Assembly: GCA_947259215.1 (NCBI GenBank)
Contig: CAMYLJ010000038.1
Coordinates: forward strand, 1-64,000
Origin: an uncultured delta proteobacterium
GTDB lineage: Bacteria > Myxococcota_A > UBA9160 > JAFDET01
Length of the DNA: 64,000 nucleotides
Direction of reading: 5' to 3'
Each line of letters begins with the position of its first letter. Position 1 is the stretch's first letter. Shown piece after piece: positions 3,740 to 32,146 of this stretch. Under the pieces are notes generated by a model. The model searched no databases. It was not told the DNA's origin and saw only the letters and a list, made by a program, of their open reading frames with translations. The position numbers were made by a program, and so were the translations under genes.

Positions 3740-5011
3740 ATGGCCACGCGCACGCTCGCCCTGGCGCTGGCCGCAAGCCTGGCCGTTTCGGCGGGCTGCG
3801 CCACGACCGGCGTTCCCGTGGACCCGAACGACCCGACTGCCCAGGCTTCCGGAGGACCGTCCATCGGCCGGCGCGTCGGGGCTGTCGCCGAGGGCGCGCT
3901 GATGGGAGCCGTGATCGGTGGCCAGATGGGCCCCATCGGGATGGCCGTGGGCGCCGCCAGCGCCATGCTCTACAGCGCCATCACCGGAAAGGTGCCGTTC
4001 TCCGCCCAGGGCGGCGGCGGCGGCGGCTGGGGCGGCGGTCCCGCGACCGGCAGCGAGCGCGAGCGGGAGCGCGAGCTCGAAGACGAGATCGAGCGCGAGA
4101 TGTCCCGCCAGGCCTCCCTCGAGACCGAGATCGAGGAGGAGCTCGAGCGCCAGGACGCGCTGCTCCAGCAGATCGACAACAACGCGGCCCAGCCTCAGGC
4201 CGATCAGGCGCCTTCGGCGCCGGAGCCGGTGAAGCCCCAGGACATCGACCCGCGGGCGGCGCCCACGGCGCCGACCGACCGCAACCTGCCGGCCGTGGTG
4301 TTCGACGAGAAGCCGGTGGAGGTGCCCAAGGGCACCTGGGACAACGACCGCAAGCTGCGGGTGCTCGAGCGCACGCTCGACGCGGACCGCGACGGAGTGC
4401 CGGAGCAGGTGCGTTACCTGGACGCCCAGGACGGGCAGATGGTGCGCAAGGAGCAGGACCGGGACTACGACGGCAAGCTCGACGCCTGGACGCGCTACGA
4501 GGACGGCCAGGTCGTCGCGCGGAGCGTCGACGAGAACAAGGACGGGCTTCCGGACGTGTGGGAGGAGTACGACCGCGGCGTCATGAGCCGCCGCGAGGTG
4601 GACCGCGACCAGGACGGCGTGCGCGACGCCTTCTACGAGTACGAGGCCGGCTCCCTGGTGGAGGAGCGCCACGACGCCAACGGCGACGGTGAGCCGGACC
4701 TGGTCGTCACCTACAAGGACCGGGTGCGGGTGCGGGCCGAAGAGGATCGCGACAAGGACGGCCGCATGGACACCTGGAGCACCTTCGAGGTGGTCGAGGG
4801 CGAAGAGGTGGTCACCCGCATCGAGCGCGACCAGAAGGGGCGGGGACAGGCCGACACCTTCGAGACCTACCGCGCGGTGGACGGGAAGCCCGAGCTGGCC
4901 CAGAAGGAGGAGGACGTGAACGGCGACGGGGACGTCGACATCACGTCCGTCTACGAGGACGGAAAGCTCAAGCGGCGGGAAGTGAGCGACCCCGCCATGA
5001 TGCCGCTCTAG
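3740..5011 (+). CDS. Lipoprotein with glycine zipper, coiled coil and EF-hand-like Asp repeats
   Basis: A 423-residue protein with a lipobox signal (hydrophobic stretch ending SAGC, Cys at 20), so a diacylated outer-membrane or periplasmic lipoprotein. A glycine-zipper-like segment (about 44-75) is followed by a Gly run, then a highly charged coiled coil (105-140, Glu/Arg alternation) and a Pro/Ala linker. From about 210 to the end there are seven to eight copies of a D-x-D-x-DG loop in a 25-35 residue period (for example DADRDGVPE, DRDYDGKLD, DANGDGEPD, DVNGDGDVD), each followed by a short aromatic strand. Such loops bind calcium in EF-hand, dockerin and thrombospondin-3 folds; binding here is inferred. 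TGGAGGTG precedes the ATG. Confidence 0.85.
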   Translation: MATRTLALALAASLAVSAGCATTGVPVDPNDPTAQASGGPSIGRRVGAVAEGALMGAVIGGQMGPIGMAVGAASAMLYSAITGKVPFSAQGGGGGGWGGGPATGSERERERELEDEIEREMSRQASLETEIEEELERQDALLQQIDNNAAQPQADQAPSAPEPVKPQDIDPRAAPTAPTDRNLPAVVFDEKPVEVPKGTWDNDRKLRVLERTLDADRDGVPEQVRYLDAQDGQMVRKEQDRDYDGKLDAWTRYEDGQVVARSVDENKDGLPDVWEEYDRGVMSRREVDRDQDGVRDAFYEYEAGSLVEERHDANGDGEPDLVVTYKDRVRVRAEEDRDKDGRMDTWSTFEVVEGEEVVTRIERDQKGRGQADTFETYRAVDGKPELAQKEEDVNGDGDVDITSVYEDGKLKRREVSDPAMMPL

Positions 5012-5020
5012 GCGAGCGCC

Positions 5021-6304
5021 CTACGGCTCCGGCGCTTCGGGGCTGAGCTCGAGCTCCCGACGCTGCATCTCGCGCTCCCGGAAGGCGTCGATCCGGCGCC
5101 GCTCCAAGAGCAGCTGGAGTTCCTTGTTGCGCGTGCGGATCCGCTCGAGCTCCAGCGCCAGCTCCCGGTCCGAGAGCTCCGCCATCTTGAAGTCCAGATC
5201 GATCTCGACGCTGGCCCGGGTGCCGTCGGACGCCAGGGCCGTCACCCGCACCCGGTTCGTGCCCTCGCGCACGGGGACGAAGCCCGAGAAGGTGCCGTCG
5301 GGCGAGAGCTCGACGTCGGTGGAGAAATCGCCGGTGGTCAGGTTGGTGAGCACCAGGTCCTCGATATTGGCGAACGACACGCCCTGGAGGAGCGCCACGA
5401 TGTCGCCCGGGTTCTGGACCGGGGTGAACTGCCCGTGGGTCACCCGGGCCATCTCCGTCAGCGCCACCGGATAGGAGAGCGCCTGGGGACCGAGGGCGTA
5501 GGTGTTGATGGTGATGCCGGCCTTCTGGGCGAGCCGCGCCGCGTTGACGGCGGCCTCCGTGTCGCCGGCGTCGGACTGGTTCCCGCGGCCGATGGGCAGG
5601 GTGGGCACCCCGTCGGTGAGGAAGAGCATCACCTTGCGCGCGCCCCGCGGCTTGCTCTTGGAGCCGGGAAGGGCCGCCAGCTCCGTGATTCCCAGCCGGA
5701 CCCCAGCGGCGAAGTTCGTGGCGCCCCGGGCGCCGCGCGCCTTCACACCGACCAGGGCGCGCCGGACCTTGTCGAAGTCGTGGGTGAAGGCGATCTCCAG
5801 GAAGGCGTCGCGCTGGTAGGGATCGAGGCGCTCGCCGGTCAGCGGGTTCACCTCGCCCCCGAACGTCAACAGACCCAGGCGCACACGCCGGGGGTCGATG
5901 CTGTCCACCAGGGCGCGGGCCGCCGCCACCTGGGCGCCCAGGATCGTGTCGTCCGGATCCGTGGAGCGGACGTCGTCCGAGAAGGCGCCGGGCGGCAGGA
6001 GCTCCACGTGCGGGTTGATCCCGACCTCGCCGTCGCCGTCCACGTCGACGCCGCTGGCGTCGTTGGTGGAGTCGGAGATGTCGATGGCGATCATCACGTC
6101 GAAGTCCGCGGACCCCCCGCCCTCGGCGACGGCGCTGCCGCGGATGGGCGCGATGTGGACCTTGTTGCGCACCACCTCGCCCGTGGTGGGGTCATCCACG
6201 AAGATCTGCACCGGGGATTGGGCGGCGGCCTCGGCCGGCGACACCGCCGGGGCCGGCCCGGCGGCCAGCACACCCAGGGCGGCGACGGCGACCCACAGCC
6301 TCAC
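5021..6304 (-). CDS. Secreted von Willebrand factor A domain protein
   Basis: A 427-residue exported protein. The GTG at 6304 overlaps the stop of the M28-like gene in a GTGA quartet. A signal peptide (about 1-28) is followed by a VWA domain with an intact metal-ion-dependent adhesion site, D75-x-S77-x-S79 (MIAIDISDST), and an inserted Asp-rich loop DVDGDGEVG that resembles a calcium site. Downstream come a TDGVPTLP segment, a beta-sandwich-like region with EGTNRVRVTA, and a C-terminal coiled coil rich in Glu/Arg (about 375-420). VWA proteins of this layout mediate protein binding at the cell surface; the partner is unknown. Tight coupling suggests it works with the M28-like protein. Confidence 0.85.
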   Translation of the reverse strand: MRLWVAVAALGVLAAGPAPAVSPAEAAAQSPVQIFVDDPTTGEVVRNKVHIAPIRGSAVAEGGGSADFDVMIAIDISDSTNDASGVDVDGDGEVGINPHVELLPPGAFSDDVRSTDPDDTILGAQVAAARALVDSIDPRRVRLGLLTFGGEVNPLTGERLDPYQRDAFLEIAFTHDFDKVRRALVGVKARGARGATNFAAGVRLGITELAALPGSKSKPRGARKVMLFLTDGVPTLPIGRGNQSDAGDTEAAVNAARLAQKAGITINTYALGPQALSYPVALTEMARVTHGQFTPVQNPGDIVALLQGVSFANIEDLVLTNLTTGDFSTDVELSPDGTFSGFVPVREGTNRVRVTALASDGTRASVEIDLDFKMAELSDRELALELERIRTRNKELQLLLERRRIDAFREREMQRRELELSPEAPEP

Positions 6305-20885: not shown

Positions 20886-22256
20886 ATGGCCACGCCCGCT
20901 GACACCACCGCCGTCCCGCTCCCGGCCGCCGAACGCGGCGGTCTGCGCCAGGTCGTCGGCCTCGCCTACCCCGTCGTCCTCTCGAACCTCTCGATGACGA
21001 TGCTCCACCTGGTGGACAGCGCCTTCGTCGGCCGCCTCGGGGCCACGGAGCTCGGCGCCGTCGGGTACGCGGGCATCTGGTACTGGACCGCGCTCTGCTT
21101 CTTCATGGGCACGGCCCAAGGCGTGCAGACCTTCGTCTCCCAGGCCCACGGCGCCGGCCGCGAGGGCGAGTGCGGCGCCTGGTTCTGGCAGGCCCTGGCC
21201 TGGCTCGCGCCGCTGGCGGCGCTGGCGCTGGGGGCGTTCGCGCTGCTCTTCCCGCTGCTGCTGGGCGTGCTCGGGCCGTCGGCGGATCTCCAGAGCGTCG
21301 CGGCGGAGTACGTGCGCCCGCGCTCCTTCGGCGCCTTCGCGTCGGTGGCCGCCATGGCGCTGGCCTCCTTCTTCCGCGGCATCGGCGACACGCGCACTCC
21401 GCTCTACGCGATGCTGGTCGCCAACGTCGCCAACGGCCTGCTCGACTACGGGCTCATCTTCGGGAACCTGGGCATGCCGGCCCTGGGCGTGGCGGGTGCG
21501 GGCGGCGCCAGCGCCGCAGCCGAGTGGCTCTACGCGGGCATCCTCTTGTTCGCGTTCCGGCGTCCGCGGGTGGCGCGGCCGTTCGTCACCCGGGCGATCC
21601 GTCCCGAGCGCAAGGCCATGCGCCGGCTCGCGCGCACGTCCACGCCGATCGGCGGCCAGTGGTTCCTGGAGATGATCAGCTTCGCGCTCTTCAGCACCCT
21701 CGTGGCGCGCATGGGCGACGAGCAGATGGCCGCGAGCCAGGCCTTCCTGGCGCTGCTCCACCTCTCGTTCATGCAGGTGGTGGGCGTCTCGGTGGCGACC
21801 GGCACCCTGGTGGGGCGCTACCGCGGCGCGGAGGACCTGGAGGCCGCCGAACGCAGCCATCGCACCGCGCAGCGCGTGGGCCTGGCCCTCGCGTTCGCGG
21901 TGGGCGCGCTCTTCCTCAGCGTGCCGGAGCAGCTGATGCGGATCTTCAGCAACGACGCCGAGGTGCTGTCCCTGGGGCGGCCGCTGCTGGCCGTGGGCGC
22001 GGCCTTCCAGCTGCTCGACGCCGTGGGGATCATCGCGAGTGGCGCCCTGCGCGGGGCCGGCGACACGCGCTGGCCCTTCGTGGTGCAGGCGACCCTGGCC
22101 TGGACCGTGTTCCTGCCTCTCGGCTGGCTCTTCGGCGTGGTCCTGGGAGGCGGGCTCTTCGGCGCCTGGGTCGGCGGCACGGTCTACGTGGCCGCGCTGG
22201 CCACGGTCTTCCTGTGGCGCTTCCGCTCTGGGGCGTGGCGATCGATCGCGATCTAG
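20886..22256 (+). CDS. MATE-family multidrug/organic cation exporter
   Basis: A 456-residue inner-membrane antiporter with twelve predicted helices in two homologous halves. The first helix region LAYPVVLSNLSMTMLHLVDS and the AFVGRLGATELGA segment, the FFRGIGDTRTPLYAMLVANV block, and the second-half counterpart ASGALRGAGDTRWPFVV are characteristic of the NorM/DinF superfamily. It would expel drugs or metabolites using Na+ or H+ gradients. Its stop shares CTAG with the convergent EEP gene. A stable hairpin lies in its leader. Confidence 0.94.
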   Translation: MATPADTTAVPLPAAERGGLRQVVGLAYPVVLSNLSMTMLHLVDSAFVGRLGATELGAVGYAGIWYWTALCFFMGTAQGVQTFVSQAHGAGREGECGAWFWQALAWLAPLAALALGAFALLFPLLLGVLGPSADLQSVAAEYVRPRSFGAFASVAAMALASFFRGIGDTRTPLYAMLVANVANGLLDYGLIFGNLGMPALGVAGAGGASAAAEWLYAGILLFAFRRPRVARPFVTRAIRPERKAMRRLARTSTPIGGQWFLEMISFALFSTLVARMGDEQMAASQAFLALLHLSFMQVVGVSVATGTLVGRYRGAEDLEAAERSHRTAQRVGLALAFAVGALFLSVPEQLMRIFSNDAEVLSLGRPLLAVGAAFQLLDAVGIIASGALRGAGDTRWPFVVQATLAWTVFLPLGWLFGVVLGGGLFGAWVGGTVYVAALATVFLWRFRSGAWRSIAI

Positions 22257-23056
22257 CGGCGGGGCTTGCGGCCCGGGCTGGCGGGGCGGGGCGGGAGCTC
22301 GATGCGGGCCACGACGGGCAGGTGATCCGAGGCCCGGCGGGCAGCCGGCGAGTCGTGGCTCCTCACCTCCAGGATCCGGGCGCCGCGGGTGTAGATCCGG
22401 TCGAGGGCCAGCATGGGGCGCGCCGCGGGAAAGCTGGCGGGCCAGTCCTGGTTGTGGTGCTGCTCGTCGAGACCGTCCTCGAGTGCGCGGGTGGCCTTGC
22501 ACTTGCGCCAGGCGTTCATGTCCCCGAGCAGCACGGAGGCGCCGGCGCGCAGCTGCGGGTGGCGCAGGAGCGATGCCACCTGGCGCTCGCGCGTGCGGTC
22601 CACGAGCCCTAGGTGTGTCGCGACCACGTTCAGCCCCTCGCCCGGCACCTCCGACAGCCCGTCGAAGGAGGCAGCCACGGCGACCCGGCGCTCCATGCGC
22701 GAGTAGGAGAGGTCCAGGATCGAGACGCCGGCGATCGGCCAGCGCGAGAGGATCGCGTTGCCGAGCTCGCCCTTGCGGTGGATCCGGGTCACCGCGAAGG
22801 CCAGGTGCAGCCCCAGGGTGTCGGCCAGCTGGACCAGGGGATCCTCGACGTCGAAGGGCCGCAGCACTTCCTGAAGCGCCATCACGTCGGCGCCGAGCTC
22901 GGAGATCACGAACCCGGCGCGCGCCGGGTCCGGCGTCGCGCGGCCGGAGAAGCCCGTCCAGCGGTGCACGTTGTAGGTGGCCACCGTGATCTCGCGCGGC
23001 ATGGCATCGAGCGTCATCGGCCTGGCGGGGGCGCGGACCAAGCCCAGGTGGGGCAT
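22253..23056 (-). CDS. Endonuclease/exonuclease/phosphatase (EEP) family protein
   Basis: Predicted Mg-dependent phosphoesterase with the EEP catalytic set: TYNVHRW (Asn metal site), MALQEV (Glu), THLGLVD, LLGDMNAW (Asp-x-Asn) and ASDHLPV (Asp-His pair) near the end. The product from ATG 23056 is about 267 residues and has a basic N-terminus and C-terminus. GTG 23149 or ATG 23017 are other possible starts. Related proteins next to cardiolipin synthases act on membrane lipid head groups, others on nucleic acids; nothing here decides between them. Confidence 0.88.
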   Translation of the reverse strand: MPHLGLVRAPARPMTLDAMPREITVATYNVHRWTGFSGRATPDPARAGFVISELGADVMALQEVLRPFDVEDPLVQLADTLGLHLAFAVTRIHRKGELGNAILSRWPIAGVSILDLSYSRMERRVAVAASFDGLSEVPGEGLNVVATHLGLVDRTRERQVASLLRHPQLRAGASVLLGDMNAWRKCKATRALEDGLDEQHHNQDWPASFPAARPMLALDRIYTRGARILEVRSHDSPAARRASDHLPVVARIELPPRPASPGRKPRR

Positions 23057-23315: not shown

Positions 23316-24695
23316 ATGGCCCGGCGACGCGCAAATCCCCTGGGGTCGCTCGCGGAGGTTCCCGCGGTGCGCGAGGCTGCGGCGGCGCTCGTCGACGCCG
23401 TCGCCGAGGCCGCGCGCGAGCGCGTGCTCTCGCCGAAGGAGTACGAGCGCGCCCTGCGCGATCTCGGCCGCATGCGCGGCCGGCCGCTCTACTACCCGCT
23501 CCTCATGGGCCGCGGCGGCCGCGGCGCGCGGGTGCAGCTGGCCGACGGCAGCCTGAAGCTCGACTTCATCGGTGGCATCGGCGTCTACGCCTTCGGGCAC
23601 GCCGACCGCGACCTGCTCGAGACCGCGGCGGCGGCGGCTGCCGCGGACGAGGTCTTCCAGGGCCACCTGGCGCCGGGGCCCGAGGCGCTTCAGCTCTCGA
23701 AGGCGCTCCTGCGTCACGCGGGGCCGCACCTGCGCCACGTCTGGCTCTCGGTGTCCGGTGCCATGGCCAACGAGAACGCGCTGAAGCTGATCTGGCAGAA
23801 GAAGGCCCCGGCCGACCGCATCCTCGCCTTCGAGCAGGGCTTCGCCGGGCGCACCAGCACCCTGGCGGAGATCACGGATCGCCCCGCCTACCGCGAGGGC
23901 CTGCCCCTGCGCGGCAACGTGGACTACGTGCCCTTCTACGACCCGCAGGATCCCGGCTCGAGCGAGCGCAGCCTGGCGGTGCTGGACGCGCACCTGGCGC
24001 GTCACCCGGGCCGGTACGCCGGCATGCTCTTCGAGCTGGTGCAGGGCGAAGGCGGGGTCGTCACCGCGCCGCCGCCCTTCTTCGTGGCGCTGATGGAGCG
24101 CTGCCGGGAGGCCGGCCTCGCCGTCTGGGTGGACGAGGTGCAGACTTTCGCGCGCACCGGCGAGCTCTTCGCCTTCCGCCACTACGGCCTCGAGGACTAC
24201 GTGGACCTCGTGACCTGCGGCAAGGCGCTCCAGGGAAGCGCGCTCTTGTTCTCGAAGCCCTACAACCCGAAGCCCGGTCTGGTGGCAGGCACCTACGCGG
24301 GCTCGACGGTCGGCATGGCGGTGGGCGCGCGCATCATCGAGCGGCTGGAGAGCGAGGGCTACCTCGGCCCCGAGGGCCGGGTGGCCGTGCTCGAGCGGCG
24401 CATCGCGCGGCGCTTCGAGCAGCTGGCGAAGACCCTGCCCCGGGCCGTGGGTCCGCGCAGCGGGATCGGCGCCATGCACGCCTTCGTGCCCTTCGACGGT
24501 CGACCCGAGGTGGTCTCGGCGTTGCTGCGCACCTGCTTCGAGGAGGGCCTCCTGATCTTCGGCGCCGGCCAGCGCCCCGGCAAGCTGCGCATGCTGCTCC
24601 CCGTGAACGTCACCGACGCCGAGCTCGAGGCCGGCTTCACCATGCTCGAGAAGGCGCTGCGGCGCGTGGCCGAGGAGCACGACCTGGCGTGCTGA
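23316..24695 (+). CDS. Class III aminotransferase, succinylornithine transaminase-like (AstC position)
   Basis: PLP enzyme, 459 residues, first gene of an arginine-catabolic unit. It shows the class III fold: SVSGAMANENALKLIWQKK, AFEQGFAGRT, ELVQGEGGV, WVDEVQTFARTG and the PLP lysine in DLVTCGKALQGSA. At 459 residues it is longer than typical AstC (about 400) and closer to larger omega-aminotransferases, so lysine or ornithine aminotransferase activity is also possible. Position before astA and astD makes succinylornithine plus 2-oxoglutarate the favoured reaction. The stop overlaps the astA start by 7 bp. Confidence 0.85.
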   Translation: MARRRANPLGSLAEVPAVREAAAALVDAVAEAARERVLSPKEYERALRDLGRMRGRPLYYPLLMGRGGRGARVQLADGSLKLDFIGGIGVYAFGHADRDLLETAAAAAAADEVFQGHLAPGPEALQLSKALLRHAGPHLRHVWLSVSGAMANENALKLIWQKKAPADRILAFEQGFAGRTSTLAEITDRPAYREGLPLRGNVDYVPFYDPQDPGSSERSLAVLDAHLARHPGRYAGMLFELVQGEGGVVTAPPPFFVALMERCREAGLAVWVDEVQTFARTGELFAFRHYGLEDYVDLVTCGKALQGSALLFSKPYNPKPGLVAGTYAGSTVGMAVGARIIERLESEGYLGPEGRVAVLERRIARRFEQLAKTLPRAVGPRSGIGAMHAFVPFDGRPEVVSALLRTCFEEGLLIFGAGQRPGKLRMLLPVNVTDAELEAGFTMLEKALRRVAEEHDLAC

Positions 24696-25711
24696 TCGTG
24701 CGCCCCATCGTCGAGGAGGACTCCGCCGACCTCCTCGCTCTGGCGCAGCTGCTCGACTCCGTAAACCTGCCCGCCGAGCCGGAGTTCCTGCGTGCGCGCA
24801 TCGCCACCTCGCAGCGCTCCTTCGAGCATCGGCTCGACGACTGGCGCCAGGGCGTCTACCTCTTCGTGCTCGAGGACACCGACGCGGGCCGCTGCGTCGG
24901 CACCTCGATGATCCGCGCCAAGCACGGCACCCCCGACGCGCCCTACTACTACTTCGAGGTATCGACCGAGGAGCGCCGCAGCACCGAGCTGGGCAAGCAC
25001 TTCGTGCATTCGCGTCTCCAGCTGATGCACAGCACCGACGGGCCCAGCGAGATCGGCGGGATCGTTCTCGACCCCGCGTACCGCGGCCATCCGCAGAAGT
25101 GCGGCAAGGCGCTCTCGGTGGTGCGCTTCGCGTTCATGGGCGCGCATCCGGACTGGTTCGAGCGGGAGGTGGTGGCGGAGATGCTCTCGCGCTTCGACGC
25201 CGAGGGGCGAAACCGCCTGTGGGACGCCTTCGGCGCCCGCTTCACGGGTCTCTCCTACCGCGAGGCCGACCACCTCTCCGCGCGCAACACGCGCTTCATC
25301 GCAGACCTCTTCCCGCGCGATCCCGTCTACGCGACGCTCTTCCCCGAGGAGGTACGCGCCAGCATCGGCGAGCCCAACGAAACCGCCAAGGCGGCGGTCC
25401 GCATCCTCGAGAAGGTAGGCTTCCACGAGCTGAACCGGGTGGACCCCTTCGACGGCGGGCCGTACTACGGCGCGGCGCGGGACGCGATCGTCTCGGTGCG
25501 CGAGCGCCGAGAGCTGGTGCTGCCGAGTGTCCCGGCGGCGTCCGACGCGCCGGGCGGACCCCTCGCCCTGCTCTCGGCCGAGGGGCGCCTGGGCTTCCGG
25601 GCGGCGGTGCTGCACCTCGACGCGGACGGCGCGCCCGTCGTCCCGGCTGCCGTGCGCGAGGCGCTGGGCGTCGCGGCCGGTGACCGCGTGAGCGTGACCC
25701 CGTTGCCCTGA
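24689..25711 (+). CDS. astA: Arginine N-succinyltransferase
   Basis: Transfers succinate from succinyl-CoA to the alpha-amino group of arginine, the first step of the AST pathway. The 340-residue product starts at GTG 24689 and has the family pattern LIVRPIVEEDSADLLALAQ, FVLEDTDAGRCVGTSMI, the PYYYFEVST region, a GGIVLDPAYRG strand-turn, RLWDAFGARFTGLSYREAD and ETAKAAVRILEKVGF. Length agrees with AstA. It is embedded between the aminotransferase and astD with overlapping or 2-bp junctions, so the operon is tightly coupled. Confidence 0.95.
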   Translation: MLIVRPIVEEDSADLLALAQLLDSVNLPAEPEFLRARIATSQRSFEHRLDDWRQGVYLFVLEDTDAGRCVGTSMIRAKHGTPDAPYYYFEVSTEERRSTELGKHFVHSRLQLMHSTDGPSEIGGIVLDPAYRGHPQKCGKALSVVRFAFMGAHPDWFEREVVAEMLSRFDAEGRNRLWDAFGARFTGLSYREADHLSARNTRFIADLFPRDPVYATLFPEEVRASIGEPNETAKAAVRILEKVGFHELNRVDPFDGGPYYGAARDAIVSVRERRELVLPSVPAASDAPGGPLALLSAEGRLGFRAAVLHLDADGAPVVPAAVREALGVAAGDRVSVTPLP

Positions 25712-25713
25712 CC

Positions 25714-27135
25714 GTGACGGAAACCCTGCACAGCGTCTCCCCCGCGGACCCGGCCGACGAGCTGGGCCGCTTCCCCGTGGCGGACACCGCGGCCGTGGAC
25801 GCGGCGGTTGCGCGCGCCCGCGCCGCCTTCCCCGCCTGGCGCGACGCGGGCTTCGAGGCGCGCGCCGCCGTGCTGCGCCGCTTTCGCGACCGGGCCGCCG
25901 AGCGCAGCGACGAGCTCGCACAGCTCGTGGCCCGCGAGGTGGGAAAGGCACTCTGGGACGCGCGCGGCGAGGCGCGCCTGCTGGCGCCGAAGGTGGACGT
26001 GACCCTGGGCGACGGCATGGGCTTCGTGGCACCGATCGCGCCCGCAGCGGGCACGCGCGCCACGTGGCACCCGCGCGGCGTATTGGCCGTGCTCGGCCCC
26101 TTCAACTTCCCCGCGCACCTGCCGAACGGCCACATCGTCCCCGCCCTGGCGCTGGGCAACACCCTCGTCTTCAAGCCGAGCGATCTCACCCCCGCCGTCG
26201 GAGCGTGGATGGCGGCGCTCTGGCGCGAGGCGGGCCTGCCCGAGGGCGTGCTCGAGATCGTGCACGGGGGCGCGGATCCGGGGCGCGCGCTCGCGCTGCA
26301 TCCGGACGTGGACGGCGTGCTCTTCACCGGCTCGTGGGCCGTGGGCCGCGCCCTGCGCGAGGCCACCGCCGACCAGCCGGAGAAGATCCTGGCCCTCGAG
26401 ATGGGCGGCAAGAACGCGATGGTGGTATTGGCGGACGCGGACCTCGACCTGGCCGTGGCCGAGGCCGCCCTCTCCATCTGCGCCACCACGGGCCAACGCT
26501 GCAGCTGCACGAGTCGCATCTTCGCGGAGCACGCGATCCTCGAGCCCTTCGCGGAGAAGCTCACGCGCGTGCTCGCGGGCGTGGTGGTTGGCCCGCCCCT
26601 CGAGGACGGCGTCTTCATGGGGCCGCTGGTCTCGCGCGCCGCCTTCGACAAGGTGATGCGCTACCGGGAGCTGGCAGCGGCCGCCGGCGGCGAGCGGGTG
26701 AGCCTCCCGCAGCCTGACCGGCCCCCGCCCTACCTGGGCCCGGGCCTCGTGCGCTTCCCCGATGCGCGCCAGGACCACGCCTACCACCGCGACGAGATCT
26801 TCGGCCCGGAGGCGGGCCTCTACCCGGTGGGCGACCTTGACGAGGCCATCGCCGCCGTGAACGACAGCGACCTCGGCCTGGTGGCCTCCGTCATGACCCG
26901 TGACCGCGCGCGCTACGAGCACTGCATCGGCCGCATCGAAACGGGCCTCCTCAACTGGAACCGCGGCACTGTCGGTGCCAGCGGACGCCTGCCCTTCGGC
27001 GGCCGCAAGCGGAGCGGCAACGACCGGCCGGCGGGGGTGCTGGCGACCCTCTACTGCGCCGTGCCCCAATCGCATCTGGAGCACGCCGGCGGCTTCGACC
27101 CGGACGCGCTGCCCCCGGGAATGCCGCGCCCGTGA
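25714..27135 (+). CDS. astD: Succinylglutamate-semialdehyde dehydrogenase
   Basis: NAD-dependent aldehyde dehydrogenase oxidising N-succinylglutamate semialdehyde. The 473-residue protein has the ALDH core: GPFNFPAHLPNGH, FKPSDLTPAVG, FTGSWAVGRALR, LEMGGKNAMVVL with the general base Glu, the catalytic cysteine in TTGQRCSCTSRI and the EIFGPEAGLY motif. NFPAHLPNGHIVPAL is typical of the AstD subgroup. GTG start at 25714; stop overlaps the next gene by GTGA. Confidence 0.94.
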   Translation: MTETLHSVSPADPADELGRFPVADTAAVDAAVARARAAFPAWRDAGFEARAAVLRRFRDRAAERSDELAQLVAREVGKALWDARGEARLLAPKVDVTLGDGMGFVAPIAPAAGTRATWHPRGVLAVLGPFNFPAHLPNGHIVPALALGNTLVFKPSDLTPAVGAWMAALWREAGLPEGVLEIVHGGADPGRALALHPDVDGVLFTGSWAVGRALREATADQPEKILALEMGGKNAMVVLADADLDLAVAEAALSICATTGQRCSCTSRIFAEHAILEPFAEKLTRVLAGVVVGPPLEDGVFMGPLVSRAAFDKVMRYRELAAAAGGERVSLPQPDRPPPYLGPGLVRFPDARQDHAYHRDEIFGPEAGLYPVGDLDEAIAAVNDSDLGLVASVMTRDRARYEHCIGRIETGLLNWNRGTVGASGRLPFGGRKRSGNDRPAGVLATLYCAVPQSHLEHAGGFDPDALPPGMPRP

Positions 27136-28100
27136 GCTGGATCCGCACGGTCTTGATGGGCGACCCGACCCACTTCAGCGTGAAGGGCGGCGCCAACCCC
27201 CACACCCGCACGCGCTGGGGCACGCGCCGCACGGTCGACCGCGCGCGCGCCGTGGCCCAGTGGCAGCGTCTGCGCGAGACCCTGCGCGACCTCGGCGTGC
27301 GCGTGCTGGTGGTGCCGCCGGACCCGACCCAGCCCGGCCTCGTGTATCCGGCCAACGCGGGCTTCCAGAGCGACGTCGACGCCGAGCGTCCGCTGGCGGA
27401 GAAGATCTTCACCCTGTCCAACCTGCTTCCGACCCGCGCCGGCGAGAAGCCCCACTACGAGCGCGTGCTGCGCGAGAGCGGCTTCCGCGTGGCGGAGATC
27501 GACCCGAGCCTGCGCTTCGAAGGCGAGGCGGACTTCTTCCCGGCTTGCGAGCGCTACCTCTTCACCCACGGCCGCCTGGAGCGCCAACGCTTCGTGCCGG
27601 CGCTGGCCTGGCCGCCCTGGCGCCGGGTCTACGGCTTCCGCACCGACGCGCGGGCCCTCGACCTGCTGGCGCAGCTCGTCGCACCGCGCCCGGTGCTGCG
27701 CCTCGAGCTCGTGCGGGAAGCGCACTACCACGGCGACACGGCCCTCTGCGCCTTCGGCCCGCAACGCGAGCACCTCCTGGCCTGGCGCCCGGCGCTGGCA
27801 CCGGAGAGCTGGGAGCCACTCGCCAGGAGCGTGGGCGACGCCCTGATCGAGCTCTCCGACGCCGACGCCGGCGTCTACGCCGCCAACTCGTTCACGTTCA
27901 CCCGCGAGGGCGAGTCCTTCCTGGTGATGCCCGGCGGCGTGTCGGAGCGCCTGCTCGCCCAGGTCCGCGAGCGCGGCGTCACGCCGATCGTCGCCGACGT
28001 CTCCGAGTTCCTGAAGAAGGGCGGCGGGTCGGTGAAGTGCATGATCGGGGACCTGGGGCCGGTGCGGGCGGAGGATCTGGTGGAGGCTGGCGCGGCGTAA
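27132..28100 (+). CDS. DDAH-like amidinotransferase-superfamily hydrolase in the AstB position
   Basis: A 322-residue guanidino-modifying enzyme fold. Motifs along it: VYPANAGF (71-78), FEGEADFF (129-136, Glu), AHYHGDTALC (197-206, His200 and Asp202) and GGGSVKCM (297-304) with the probable nucleophile Cys303. This Cys-His-Glu set is that of dimethylarginine dimethylaminohydrolase, arginine deiminase and AstB. AstB is about 440 residues and has other motifs, so this is not AstB itself. Its place as the fourth gene of astC-A-D suggests it hydrolyses N-succinylarginine to succinylornithine. The start is the GTG overlapping the astD stop. Confidence 0.85.
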   Translation: MSWIRTVLMGDPTHFSVKGGANPHTRTRWGTRRTVDRARAVAQWQRLRETLRDLGVRVLVVPPDPTQPGLVYPANAGFQSDVDAERPLAEKIFTLSNLLPTRAGEKPHYERVLRESGFRVAEIDPSLRFEGEADFFPACERYLFTHGRLERQRFVPALAWPPWRRVYGFRTDARALDLLAQLVAPRPVLRLELVREAHYHGDTALCAFGPQREHLLAWRPALAPESWEPLARSVGDALIELSDADAGVYAANSFTFTREGESFLVMPGGVSERLLAQVRERGVTPIVADVSEFLKKGGGSVKCMIGDLGPVRAEDLVEAGAA

Positions 28101-28541: not shown

Positions 28542-29303
28542 ATGCTGGGTACTCCCCCCAACCGGCCTCGCGGATTCTGGGCCGCCGTCGCCCTGGCCCT
28601 CGGGCTGGCGCTGGCGCCGGCGGCGAGCGCGATCCCCATCGCCGCATGGGATTTCGACGGCGGCACCGCCAGCGACGTCTCGGGCACGCCTCCGCCCTAC
28701 GACCTCGGCGCCGTGGGTGGCGGCCCGGACCTGTCCGGGGGCTTTGCCGCCTTCGACGGGGACGAGGGGAGCCCCTCCTATCTGGAGGTCGCGGGGCCGG
28801 GCGGGATGACCCAGTACACGGTCTCGCTCTGGGTGCGCACCCAGGGCCAGATCGACCAGGGCAACTTCCAGGGCATCTTCAGCAACAACACCAGCTCGGG
28901 CGCCGCGTGGTCGTGGCAGCTCGAGAGCTTCAGCGGGACGTACCAGTGGCGGAACCAGGCCGGCACCTTCGTGGTCGGCGCGCCGAGCGCGCTCGGCACC
29001 TGGGACCACATCGCCATCCGCAAGTTCGGCGGCAGCGACGGCGACATCTGGTACAACGGCGTCCAGATCGTGGGCGGTATCGGCGGCAACCCGGGCGGCC
29101 TCCAGAACTTCCGGCTCGGGACCAACCGCAACAGCAGCAACTTCTGGCAGGGCGACATCGACGACATCGTCGTCTTCGATTCGGTCGAGGATCCCGCCGC
29201 CCTCTTCGCAGCCGGCCCGCCCGTCCCGATCCCCGAGCCCGCCACCGCCACGCTGCTGGCGTTCGCGCTCGGGGTCGGACTGAGCCGCCTCCGAGCCAGC
29301 TGA
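28542..29303 (+). CDS. PEP-CTERM protein with LamG-like domain
   Basis: A 253-residue exported protein: signal peptide (about 9-30), a concanavalin/LamG-like beta-sandwich (IAAWDFDGGTASD through FWQGDIDDIVVFDSV, about 32-220), and a C-terminal sorting tripartite signal of IPEPA, a hydrophobic helix and a short Arg-containing end. Exosortase recognises such tails and the proteins accompany extracellular polysaccharide. No exosortase gene is in the window. LamG domains bind glycans or other ligands; the ligand is unknown. Confidence 0.85.
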   Translation: MLGTPPNRPRGFWAAVALALGLALAPAASAIPIAAWDFDGGTASDVSGTPPPYDLGAVGGGPDLSGGFAAFDGDEGSPSYLEVAGPGGMTQYTVSLWVRTQGQIDQGNFQGIFSNNTSSGAAWSWQLESFSGTYQWRNQAGTFVVGAPSALGTWDHIAIRKFGGSDGDIWYNGVQIVGGIGGNPGGLQNFRLGTNRNSSNFWQGDIDDIVVFDSVEDPAALFAAGPPVPIPEPATATLLAFALGVGLSRLRAS

Positions 29304-29490: not shown

Positions 29491-29748
29491 ATGGCCCGGA
29501 GCACCACCAGCATCCGCCTCCCGGACGATCTCATCGAGGCCCTGGACGAACGTGCCGCTGCGCTCGGCGTCACGCGTAGCCAGCTCATCATCGAAGCGGT
29601 CGAACAGGCGCTCGACGATCGCTCCTCGTGGTCGCCGGGCTTCCTGAAGGCGATCGGGGCCCCACGCCCCGAGTTGGACGAAGCGGTCGCTGAGATGGTG
29701 GAAGCCATCCGGGACCGCAGCTCCCGGAGCGAACCTCCCGACCTTTGA
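29491..29748 (+). CDS. Ribbon-helix-helix antitoxin (VapB/CopG type)
   Basis: An 85-residue protein. The first 45 residues form a ribbon-helix-helix domain: a short strand with SIRLPDDLI, then two helices through ALGVTRSQLIIEAVEQAL. The C-terminal part, acidic, is the likely toxin-neutralising segment. It is coupled to the PIN toxin through a TTGA overlap and should repress its own promoter with the toxin. Confidence 0.85.
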   Translation: MARSTTSIRLPDDLIEALDERAAALGVTRSQLIIEAVEQALDDRSSWSPGFLKAIGAPRPELDEAVAEMVEAIRDRSSRSEPPDL

Positions 29749-30146
29749 GATACCTGCTCGACACCAATACGGTCTCCGCCTTGATGCGCGGCGAACCGCA
29801 AGTGGCGGCGCGCGTGGCCGGGACGCCGCGCGAGAACGTCGCGATCTCCCAGGTGACGGCGGCCGAGATCGAGTTCGGCCTCTGCTATCTGCCGGCGTCC
29901 AGGCGCCGCAGGGCGCTCGAGGCGCAGTGGTCGGCGATCGGGCCGGAGCTGATCCGCCTGCCCTGGAGCGACGAGGTGAGTCGGCGCTTCGGAGAGCGAA
30001 AGGCCCGGCTCGAGAAGGCGGGCCGGCGGCTGAGCGACTTCGATCTCGCGATCGCGGTACACGCACTTGCCTACGGTCTCACGCTCGTCAGCGCCGATCG
30101 GGCCTTCGAACGCCTTCGGCTGCGTCGAGAGAACTGGCTGGCCTGA
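29745..30146 (+). CDS. PIN-domain ribonuclease toxin (VapC type)
   Basis: A 133-residue endoribonuclease with the PIN acidic residues in LLDTNTVSALM (Asp6), TAAEIEFGL (Glu near 42), SDFDLAIAVHA (Asp near 99) and SADRAF (Asp near 117). VapC toxins cleave tRNA or rRNA when freed from antitoxin. The TTG start at 29745 overlaps the antitoxin stop. The pair sits among gene relics, consistent with a mobile or recently inserted module. Confidence 0.9.
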   Translation: MRYLLDTNTVSALMRGEPQVAARVAGTPRENVAISQVTAAEIEFGLCYLPASRRRRALEAQWSAIGPELIRLPWSDEVSRRFGERKARLEKAGRRLSDFDLAIAVHALAYGLTLVSADRAFERLRLRRENWLA

Positions 30147-31501: not shown

Positions 31502-32146
31502 ATGGGCGCGATCGGCGTCAAGCGAGTAGCGGTGCTCGTCGCCGCGATTCTCGGGCTGGGCCTGGGGGCCCGCCCCGCGCTCGCCACGTTCATCTCCAGC
31601 GCGGCCGATCCCGCCCTGTCCGGAGCCACCACGTTCGACTTCGACAGCGAGCCCGGCGACATCTACTTCGGGACGCGCACCTTCGGTGGCGCCTTCACGT
31701 TCACCGCCGACGCCAACGACCTGCACATCGACGACGTCTGGTGCGCGAGCTTCGGCACCACCGGGAACTGCCTCGACACGCTGTCGTCCGGGGGTCAGCC
31801 GAACGACCACTTCCGTATCGACTTCATCACTTCGGTGTCGGCCTTCGGCTTCGTGCTGAACGCACTCGACACGGACTGGGTGATGGAGACGTACGACGCT
31901 TCGGACAACCTGCTCGGGAGCTACACGATCCTGAGCCAGAGCCCGGGCTTGACCGGCTTCAACCGGCGCGGCTACGCCGGCGCCAGCGAGGCGACGCCGA
32001 TCTCCTACGTGACCATCACGTCGCCCGGGGCGGACGATCGCGCGCTGATCGACGACTTCGCCTGGGTCGCCATCCCCGAGCCCTCGCTGGCCTGGCTCCT
32101 CGGGCTCGGACTGACTGGCCTGGCCTGGGCGTCGCGCCGCCGCTAG
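31502..32146 (+). CDS. PEP-CTERM sorting-signal protein
   Basis: A 214-residue exported protein: signal peptide (about 8-29), a beta-rich domain (30-185) with one Cys pair (C81, C90) and repeated Asp-Asn turns, and a C-terminal IPEP-hydrophobic helix-SRRR sorting signal. GGAGGAC lies before the ATG at 31502. It would be processed by an exosortase and presented with extracellular polysaccharide. The domain is not one that I can name. It is unrelated to the LamG-type PEP-CTERM protein 2 kb upstream except for the tail. Confidence 0.85.
   Translation: MGAIGVKRVAVLVAAILGLGLGARPALATFISSAADPALSGATTFDFDSEPGDIYFGTRTFGGAFTFTADANDLHIDDVWCASFGTTGNCLDTLSSGGQPNDHFRIDFITSVSAFGFVLNALDTDWVMETYDASDNLLGSYTILSQSPGLTGFNRRGYAGASEATPISYVTITSPGADDRALIDDFAWVAIPEPSLAWLLGLGLTGLAWASRRR

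Follow-up and report, generated by a model that had tools for sequence, protein, structure and literature searches.

The arginine succinyltransferase (AST) pathway is encoded by astCADBE in Escherichia coli and by the aru genes in Pseudomonas, and its dihydrolase AstB (PDB 1ynf/1ynh), a protein of ~440 residues, has the fold of the guanidino-group-modifying enzyme (GME) superfamily. Dimethylargininase (DDAH) and the arginine dihydrolase domain of ArgZ/AgrE (Sll1336, Alr4995) belong to the same superfamily; AgrE has been described as bifunctional, its arginine dihydrolase activity giving ornithine as the intermediate (PMC8262935). Here we describe a four-gene operon (23316-28100, + strand) in a window of 64,000 nucleotides, i.e., the whole stretch of DNA analyzed (contig CAMYLJ010000038.1), from an uncultured delta proteobacterium whose genome assembly comprises 5.70 Mb in 128 contigs and is 95.7% complete. 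The operon encodes an aminotransferase (AT), AstA, AstD, and, in the slot of AstB, a 322-residue protein that we call X. We consider it likely (probability of about 0.73) that the operon specifies a variant AST pathway in which X hydrolyzes N2-succinylarginine to N2-succinylornithine, two NH3, and CO2; we infer this substrate and reaction, as well as the roles of the AT and of an M20 deacylase of sister operons, from sequence, predicted fold, and gene distribution. The four genes, arranged head to tail, are as follows:

23316-24695, + strand: AT, a class III pyridoxal phosphate (PLP) aminotransferase of 459 aa (PF00202, 162.5 bits)
24689-25711, + strand: astA, arginine N-succinyltransferase of a divergent type, GTG start (PF04958, 310.7 bits)
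25714-27135, + strand: astD, succinylglutamate-semialdehyde dehydrogenase of a divergent type (NF006992, 406.5 bits; TIGR03240, 392.3 bits)
27132-28100, + strand: gene X, putative N2-succinylarginine dihydrolase with the GME fold, non-orthologous to AstB (phmmer, AlphaFold2, Foldseek)

The AT stop overlaps the GTG start of astA at 24689 by 7 bp, astA and astD are separated by 2 bp, and astD and X overlap by 4 bp (GTGA). As in the known AST systems, an aminotransferase comes first, AstA and AstD homologs follow, and the order AT-astA-astD-dihydrolase is kept in a tight operon, whereas X takes the place of AstB, the AT lies outside the AstC clade, and no AstE was found in the genome, an M20 deacylase being present in sister operons.

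X passes no NCBIfam cut-off. Its only Pfam match is DDAH_eukar (PF19420; 33.2 bits, cut-off 23), over 31 C-terminal residues, and its NCBIfam scores fall below the cut-offs for DDAH (NF045658/9 and NF045660; best 128.5 bits with the Mycobacterium tuberculosis-type model, cut-off 300), for CtlX (NF046062; 24.7 bits, cut-off 334), and for ArgZ/AgrE (NF052232; 90.4 bits, cut-off 450), the last of which gives 338 and 321 bits with ArgZ-like controls from two genomes of the same order (G094 and G168, respectively). When all solved structures were searched with X using phmmer, only the arginine dihydrolases ArgZ (Sll1336; 4e-16) and AgrE were matched, and a profile of 25 X proteins also placed ArgZ/AgrE first (3e-33), with DDAH far behind (9e-7). 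With the AlphaFold2 model of X (pLDDT 89.5, pTM 0.89), Foldseek ranked ArgZ/AgrE (9e-22) ahead of AstB (9e-13) and DDAH (1e-12), and ArgZ was the closest solved structure, with a TM-score of 0.90 (ArgZ length) at 25% identity. The nearest relatives of X with known function are, by sequence and predicted fold, ArgZ/AgrE and then AstB, rather than DDAH, with which X shares the superfamily and the C-terminal Pfam match; because the two best folds are both dihydrolases, this supports a dihydrolase reading of X. X is single-domain and lacks the ornithine cyclodeaminase part of ArgZ/AgrE, from which it is separated by a long branch (support 100/100) in our unrooted tree. Judging from the sequence, X is not an ortholog of AstB: it is shorter, has no match to PF04996, and was aligned with AstB by hhalign over the C-terminal third only (E = 0.001), with no full-length alignment, while the two proteins share the superfamily fold, the types of catalytic residues, the genomic slot, and the dependence on AstA.

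The signature loop and catalytic residues of X are encoded as follows:

27186-27209, + strand: signature loop GGANPHTR (residues 19-26), replacing the ArgZ loop that ends in YVINPWME; invariant in the 25-member alignment
27354-27356, + strand: codon of Asn75, equivalent to ArgZ Asn71 (aligned with the 6juz N71S sequence); invariant
27519-27521, + strand: codon of Glu130, the catalytic Glu; Glu132 and Asp134 are invariant too
27729-27731, + strand: codon of His200, the catalytic His in YHGD (ArgZ alignment); invariant
28038-28040, + strand: codon of Cys303, the nucleophile, equivalent to ArgZ Cys264 (aligned with the 6jv1 C264S sequence), in an invariant KGGGxxKCM

Cys303, His200, Glu130, and Asn75 are invariant in the 25 X homologs and line up with the Cys, His, Glu, and Asn of ArgZ; since the alignment included the sequences of the ArgZ mutants C264S and N71S, the catalytic set of X could be placed directly. 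AstB carries comparable motifs (ANA, FHND, and GGGPAC). The PDB title of 6juz (ArgZ N71S) refers to a covalently bound reaction intermediate, indicating a role of this Asn in completing the reaction. We rejected Asn75 alone as proof of dihydrolysis, because three controls that are more DDAH-like (L221, L222, and L228) also have Asn at this position. The loop, in contrast, sets X apart from ArgZ: GGANPHTR or close variants are found with few changes across ~85 X homologs, the Arg is invariant, and position 18 is never acidic, unlike V[DE]YVIN of ArgZ (DVDYVINPWME in full); the GGANPHTR loop is absent from ArgZ and from the ArgZ/DDAH-like controls. An earlier note, made from the letters of the window, had the gene order, its tight junctions, the coordinates, and the frames right, and its description of X as a 322-residue Cys-His-Glu enzyme distinct from AstB holds, while its label "DDAH-like" for X is corrected by the closer relationship to ArgZ.

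The distribution of X supports a function in place of AstB. A profile search (PF04996 and TIGR03241) found no AstB in the window's genome, X included, at the 95.7% completeness of the assembly. Among 284 genomes of the phylum (X counted at E <= 1e-30, plus a split copy in G189), AstA was present in 111, X in 42, and AstB in 36, and X and AstB were never found in the same genome (0/284). AstA accompanied 41 of the 42 X and 34 of the 36 AstB; the co-occurrence of X with AstA has a Fisher P of 2e-18, and within the 111 AstA genomes 12.6 overlaps of X and AstB were expected by chance against none seen (hypergeometric P = 2.7e-9), relatedness being ignored in both values. Two groups include X genomes as well as AstB genomes, and the exclusion is seen again within each: the window's order (22 X, 2 AstB) and a family, f17, that matches named records of Lujinxingia/Bradymonadia (16 X, 3 AstB). 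In a second sample of 32 X genomes, traced through other loci (one of them, Lujinxingia vulgaris, is also in the first sample), AstA was present in 30 and AstB in none, and X was often unlinked to astA. X therefore occurs without AstA in 3/73 distinct genomes. This one-sided dependence, in which X hardly ever occurs where AstA is lacking but AstA is found in genomes that lack X, is also shown by AstB and fits an enzyme acting downstream of AstA. In G120, a genome of the same order, the operon M20-AT-astA-astD-astB has a genuine AstB (528.6 bits; NCBI subfamily cut-off 452) in the slot of X, and its AT, in the same slot as that of the window, is 45% identical to it; in G115, astA-astD-astB is adjoined by an AstE-like gene.

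AstD-X adjacency was kept in 25/25 related loci of the order and its sister family, with X at ~58% identity or more, so that the arrangement is not due to chance, and the four-gene order recurs through relatives from named records (Myxococcota/Deltaproteobacteria genomes, including the isolate UBA9160). More widely, among 79 loci from named genomes, spanning Myxococcota, Binatota, Nitrospinota, Lindowbacteria, Omnitrophota, Elusimicrobiota, Chlamydiota, and Bradymonadia, the stretch that was fetched includes astA and/or astD in 53, an AT in 28, and an M20 deacylase in 15. One Lindowbacteria locus (L172; M20 at 4200-5540) carries AT-M20-astA-astD-X, i.e., one gene for each of all five AST steps. 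Binatia loci with X among unrelated genes were considered as a counter-example to the linkage and rejected, because AstA is encoded at another place in the same genomes, frequently next to an M20 gene. The unrooted tree gives weak support to the placement of the Bradymonadia X. The proposal of the earlier note that X stands in for AstB is thus upheld by the exclusion with AstB, the co-occurrence with AstA, and the identical operon slot; an astB elsewhere in the genome and a lack of linkage in relatives, which had figured in the note's grounds for giving the proposal up, were both looked for, and neither was found.

A second GME-superfamily group was seen, alongside X, chiefly in Bradymonadia-type genomes of f17 (G151, G063, G209, and G184). 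Its members (L224:304-1209, +; L225; L226:247-1155, +; L227:305-1210, -) have an RGxANFKSR loop, YTAEAG for ANAG, and WFHGN, and score under every NCBIfam cut-off.

The remaining enzymes of the operon are themselves divergent. AstA is far above the Pfam cut-off for PF04958 (29.4), below that of TIGR03243 (235.6 bits, cut-off 284), and also below the equivalog cut-off of 391; it is the single AstA copy in the genome. AstD has succinylglutamate-semialdehyde dehydrogenase as its best aldehyde dehydrogenase subfamily, far above the other models of that superfamily, yet it remains under the cut-offs (514 for NF006992 and 579 for TIGR03240). The AT scores 97.6 bits against TIGR03246 (AstC; cut-off 610) and lies outside the AstC clade; it fills the AstC slot as a putative succinylornithine aminotransferase. 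AstA away from any AST gene was observed in several genomes without AstB or X (G007, G077, G086, G269, and others; L199-L202), where it may serve in ornithine succinylation.

As for the last step, searches with PF04952, PF24827, and TIGR03242 found no AstE in the window's genome (95.7% complete). Proteins with an AstE_AspA_cat domain are common in the phylum, AstA-negative genomes included, and therefore say little about this step. The M20 protein of the sister operons is closest to acetylornithine deacetylase, under the cut-off, and keeps the family motifs HLD, EE, and GEP and the C-terminal His; where X is located elsewhere, astA is usually beside an M20 gene (20/30 fetched astA loci). The M20 deacylase probably replaces AstE in the sister operons. 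The expectation of the earlier note that the AstE step is encoded elsewhere or done differently is extended by this likely substitute next to astA in sister operons; in the window's own family, no M20 of the operon type was found beyond weak matches. The G120 operon, with its true AstB, is led by a different M20 hydrolase (L206:10669-11958, -) of the PRK07338/glutamate carboxypeptidase type, unlike the ArgE-like M20 elsewhere, and this is possibly a second AstE substitute; its only relative in the window's genome scores 219 bits and lies on a different contig (C10:203478), and its occurrence in the order showed no consistent pattern.

In the pathway that we propose, AstA would succinylate arginine, and X would hydrolyze N2-succinylarginine twice through an amidino-thioester on Cys303, releasing CO2 and two NH3 and leaving N2-succinylornithine. 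The non-AstC class III aminotransferase would then yield succinylglutamate semialdehyde, which AstD would oxidize to succinylglutamate, and in the sister operons the M20 deacylase would most likely free glutamate and succinate.

Because ArgZ acts on free arginine, we must weigh a reversed order of events, in which X would be an ArgZ-like dihydrolase converting arginine to ornithine, CO2, and two NH3, and the divergent AstA would succinylate ornithine, with AT and AstD acting as usual. The closest solved relative of X does act on free arginine, AstA is under its equivalog cut-off, and AstA genomes with neither X nor AstB look as if their AstA used ornithine. However, an ornithine producer should be useful without AstA, and X is without AstA in just the three genomes noted above; the two same-order genomes with an ArgZ-like enzyme, with the loop V[DE]YVINPWM, have no AstA; in X this loop is replaced along with its Asp residues; and X occupies the AstB slot. 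We regard the reversed order as unlikely, and it is the one-sided dependence on AstA, the ArgZ-like enzymes in AstA-negative genomes, and the replaced loop that make us favor succinylarginine as the substrate. These two enzymes (G094 C74:14904-15683, +, L229; G168 C15:69-854, -, L223) are examples of ArgZ-type arginine dihydrolase domains outside cyanobacteria. Deimination of succinylarginine to N2-succinylcitrulline with release of one NH3, as suggested in the earlier note, has in its favor that deiminases are numerous in the superfamily, yet no conserved neighbor of X is suited to succinylcitrulline, the AST route depends on succinylornithine for its AT and AstD, and the Asn whose mutation in ArgZ traps the intermediate is invariant in X, so that we give this suggestion very little credence.

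The best NCBIfam score and the Pfam match of X could be taken to mean that it is a DDAH, or a CtlX-type citrulline hydrolase, whose operon position is unrelated to the AST route; this is highly improbable, as X is far under the cut-offs of both, fold and sequence favor ArgZ over DDAH, and the linkage and the exclusion with AstB hold across phyla. Degradation of another guanidino amino acid (e.g., homoarginine or canavanine) by AST logic would agree with the divergence of all four proteins, but G120 pairs a homologous AT with AstA and a true AstB, AstA is single in the window's genome, and no second, normal AST route was found there; we see hardly any room for it. The variant AST pathway with X as succinylarginine dihydrolase has weak points of its own. 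AstA, AstD, and AT are all under equivalog cut-offs, and the whole operon could accordingly have shifted its substrate; in 36 of the phylum's 111 AstA genomes both X and AstB are missing, and other roles of divergent AstA are therefore conceivable. Searching the window's family for the operon-type M20 (alignment A2) gave weak matches only (best 39.7 bits in the window's genome). A contact of the GGANPHTR loop with the alpha-amino substituent may be suggested by analogy with residues 19-28 of AstB, which are annotated as substrate-binding and sit at the corresponding N-terminal place.

On the 5' side, the operon is preceded by a MATE transporter gene (20886-22256, +) and an endonuclease/exonuclease/phosphatase-family gene (22253-22987, -), and on the 3' side it is followed by a lectin-like gene; from these flanks the operon most likely consists of AT, astA, astD, and X alone. 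Several genomes of the order likewise have a MATE-family transporter near the AST operon, and in Lujinxingia one lies immediately upstream of X (L171:6451-7926, +; L050:8284-9759, +). The lectin-like gene encodes a concanavalin-like lectin-domain protein (28542-29303, +), and a PEP-CTERM-type protein is encoded nearby (31502-32146, +). At 29494-30146 (+), a ribbon-helix-helix gene and a PIN-domain gene that overlap by 4 bp look like a VapBC-type toxin-antitoxin pair.

We lean slightly toward a broader view, in which Myxococcota (the window's order and Bradymonadia), Binatota, Omnitrophota, Lindowbacteria, and others would have a second AST pathway, parallel to the known one, with three of the five enzymes non-orthologous: a different class III aminotransferase would take the place of AstC, a third family of dihydrolases within the guanidino-modifying superfamily that of AstB, and an M20 deacylase that of AstE. 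Neither the chemistry nor the logic of the pathway is new; what the models searched lack is the X family as the dihydrolase of this route, the AT outside the AstC clade, and the M20 deacylase. In the open-access papers searched we found no description of these and no published AstB substitute, an absence that is no proof of novelty. If correct, this pathway would supply what seems to be missing from arginine catabolism in several phyla, most of them uncultured, and would correct an annotation, because present models would call X proteins DDAH-like or leave them nameless. It would also bring to three the dihydrolase families of a superfamily in which the step from deiminase to dihydrolase has mechanistic interest, and X and AstB, being mutually exclusive, lend themselves to a comparison of how one substrate came to be served by two scaffolds.

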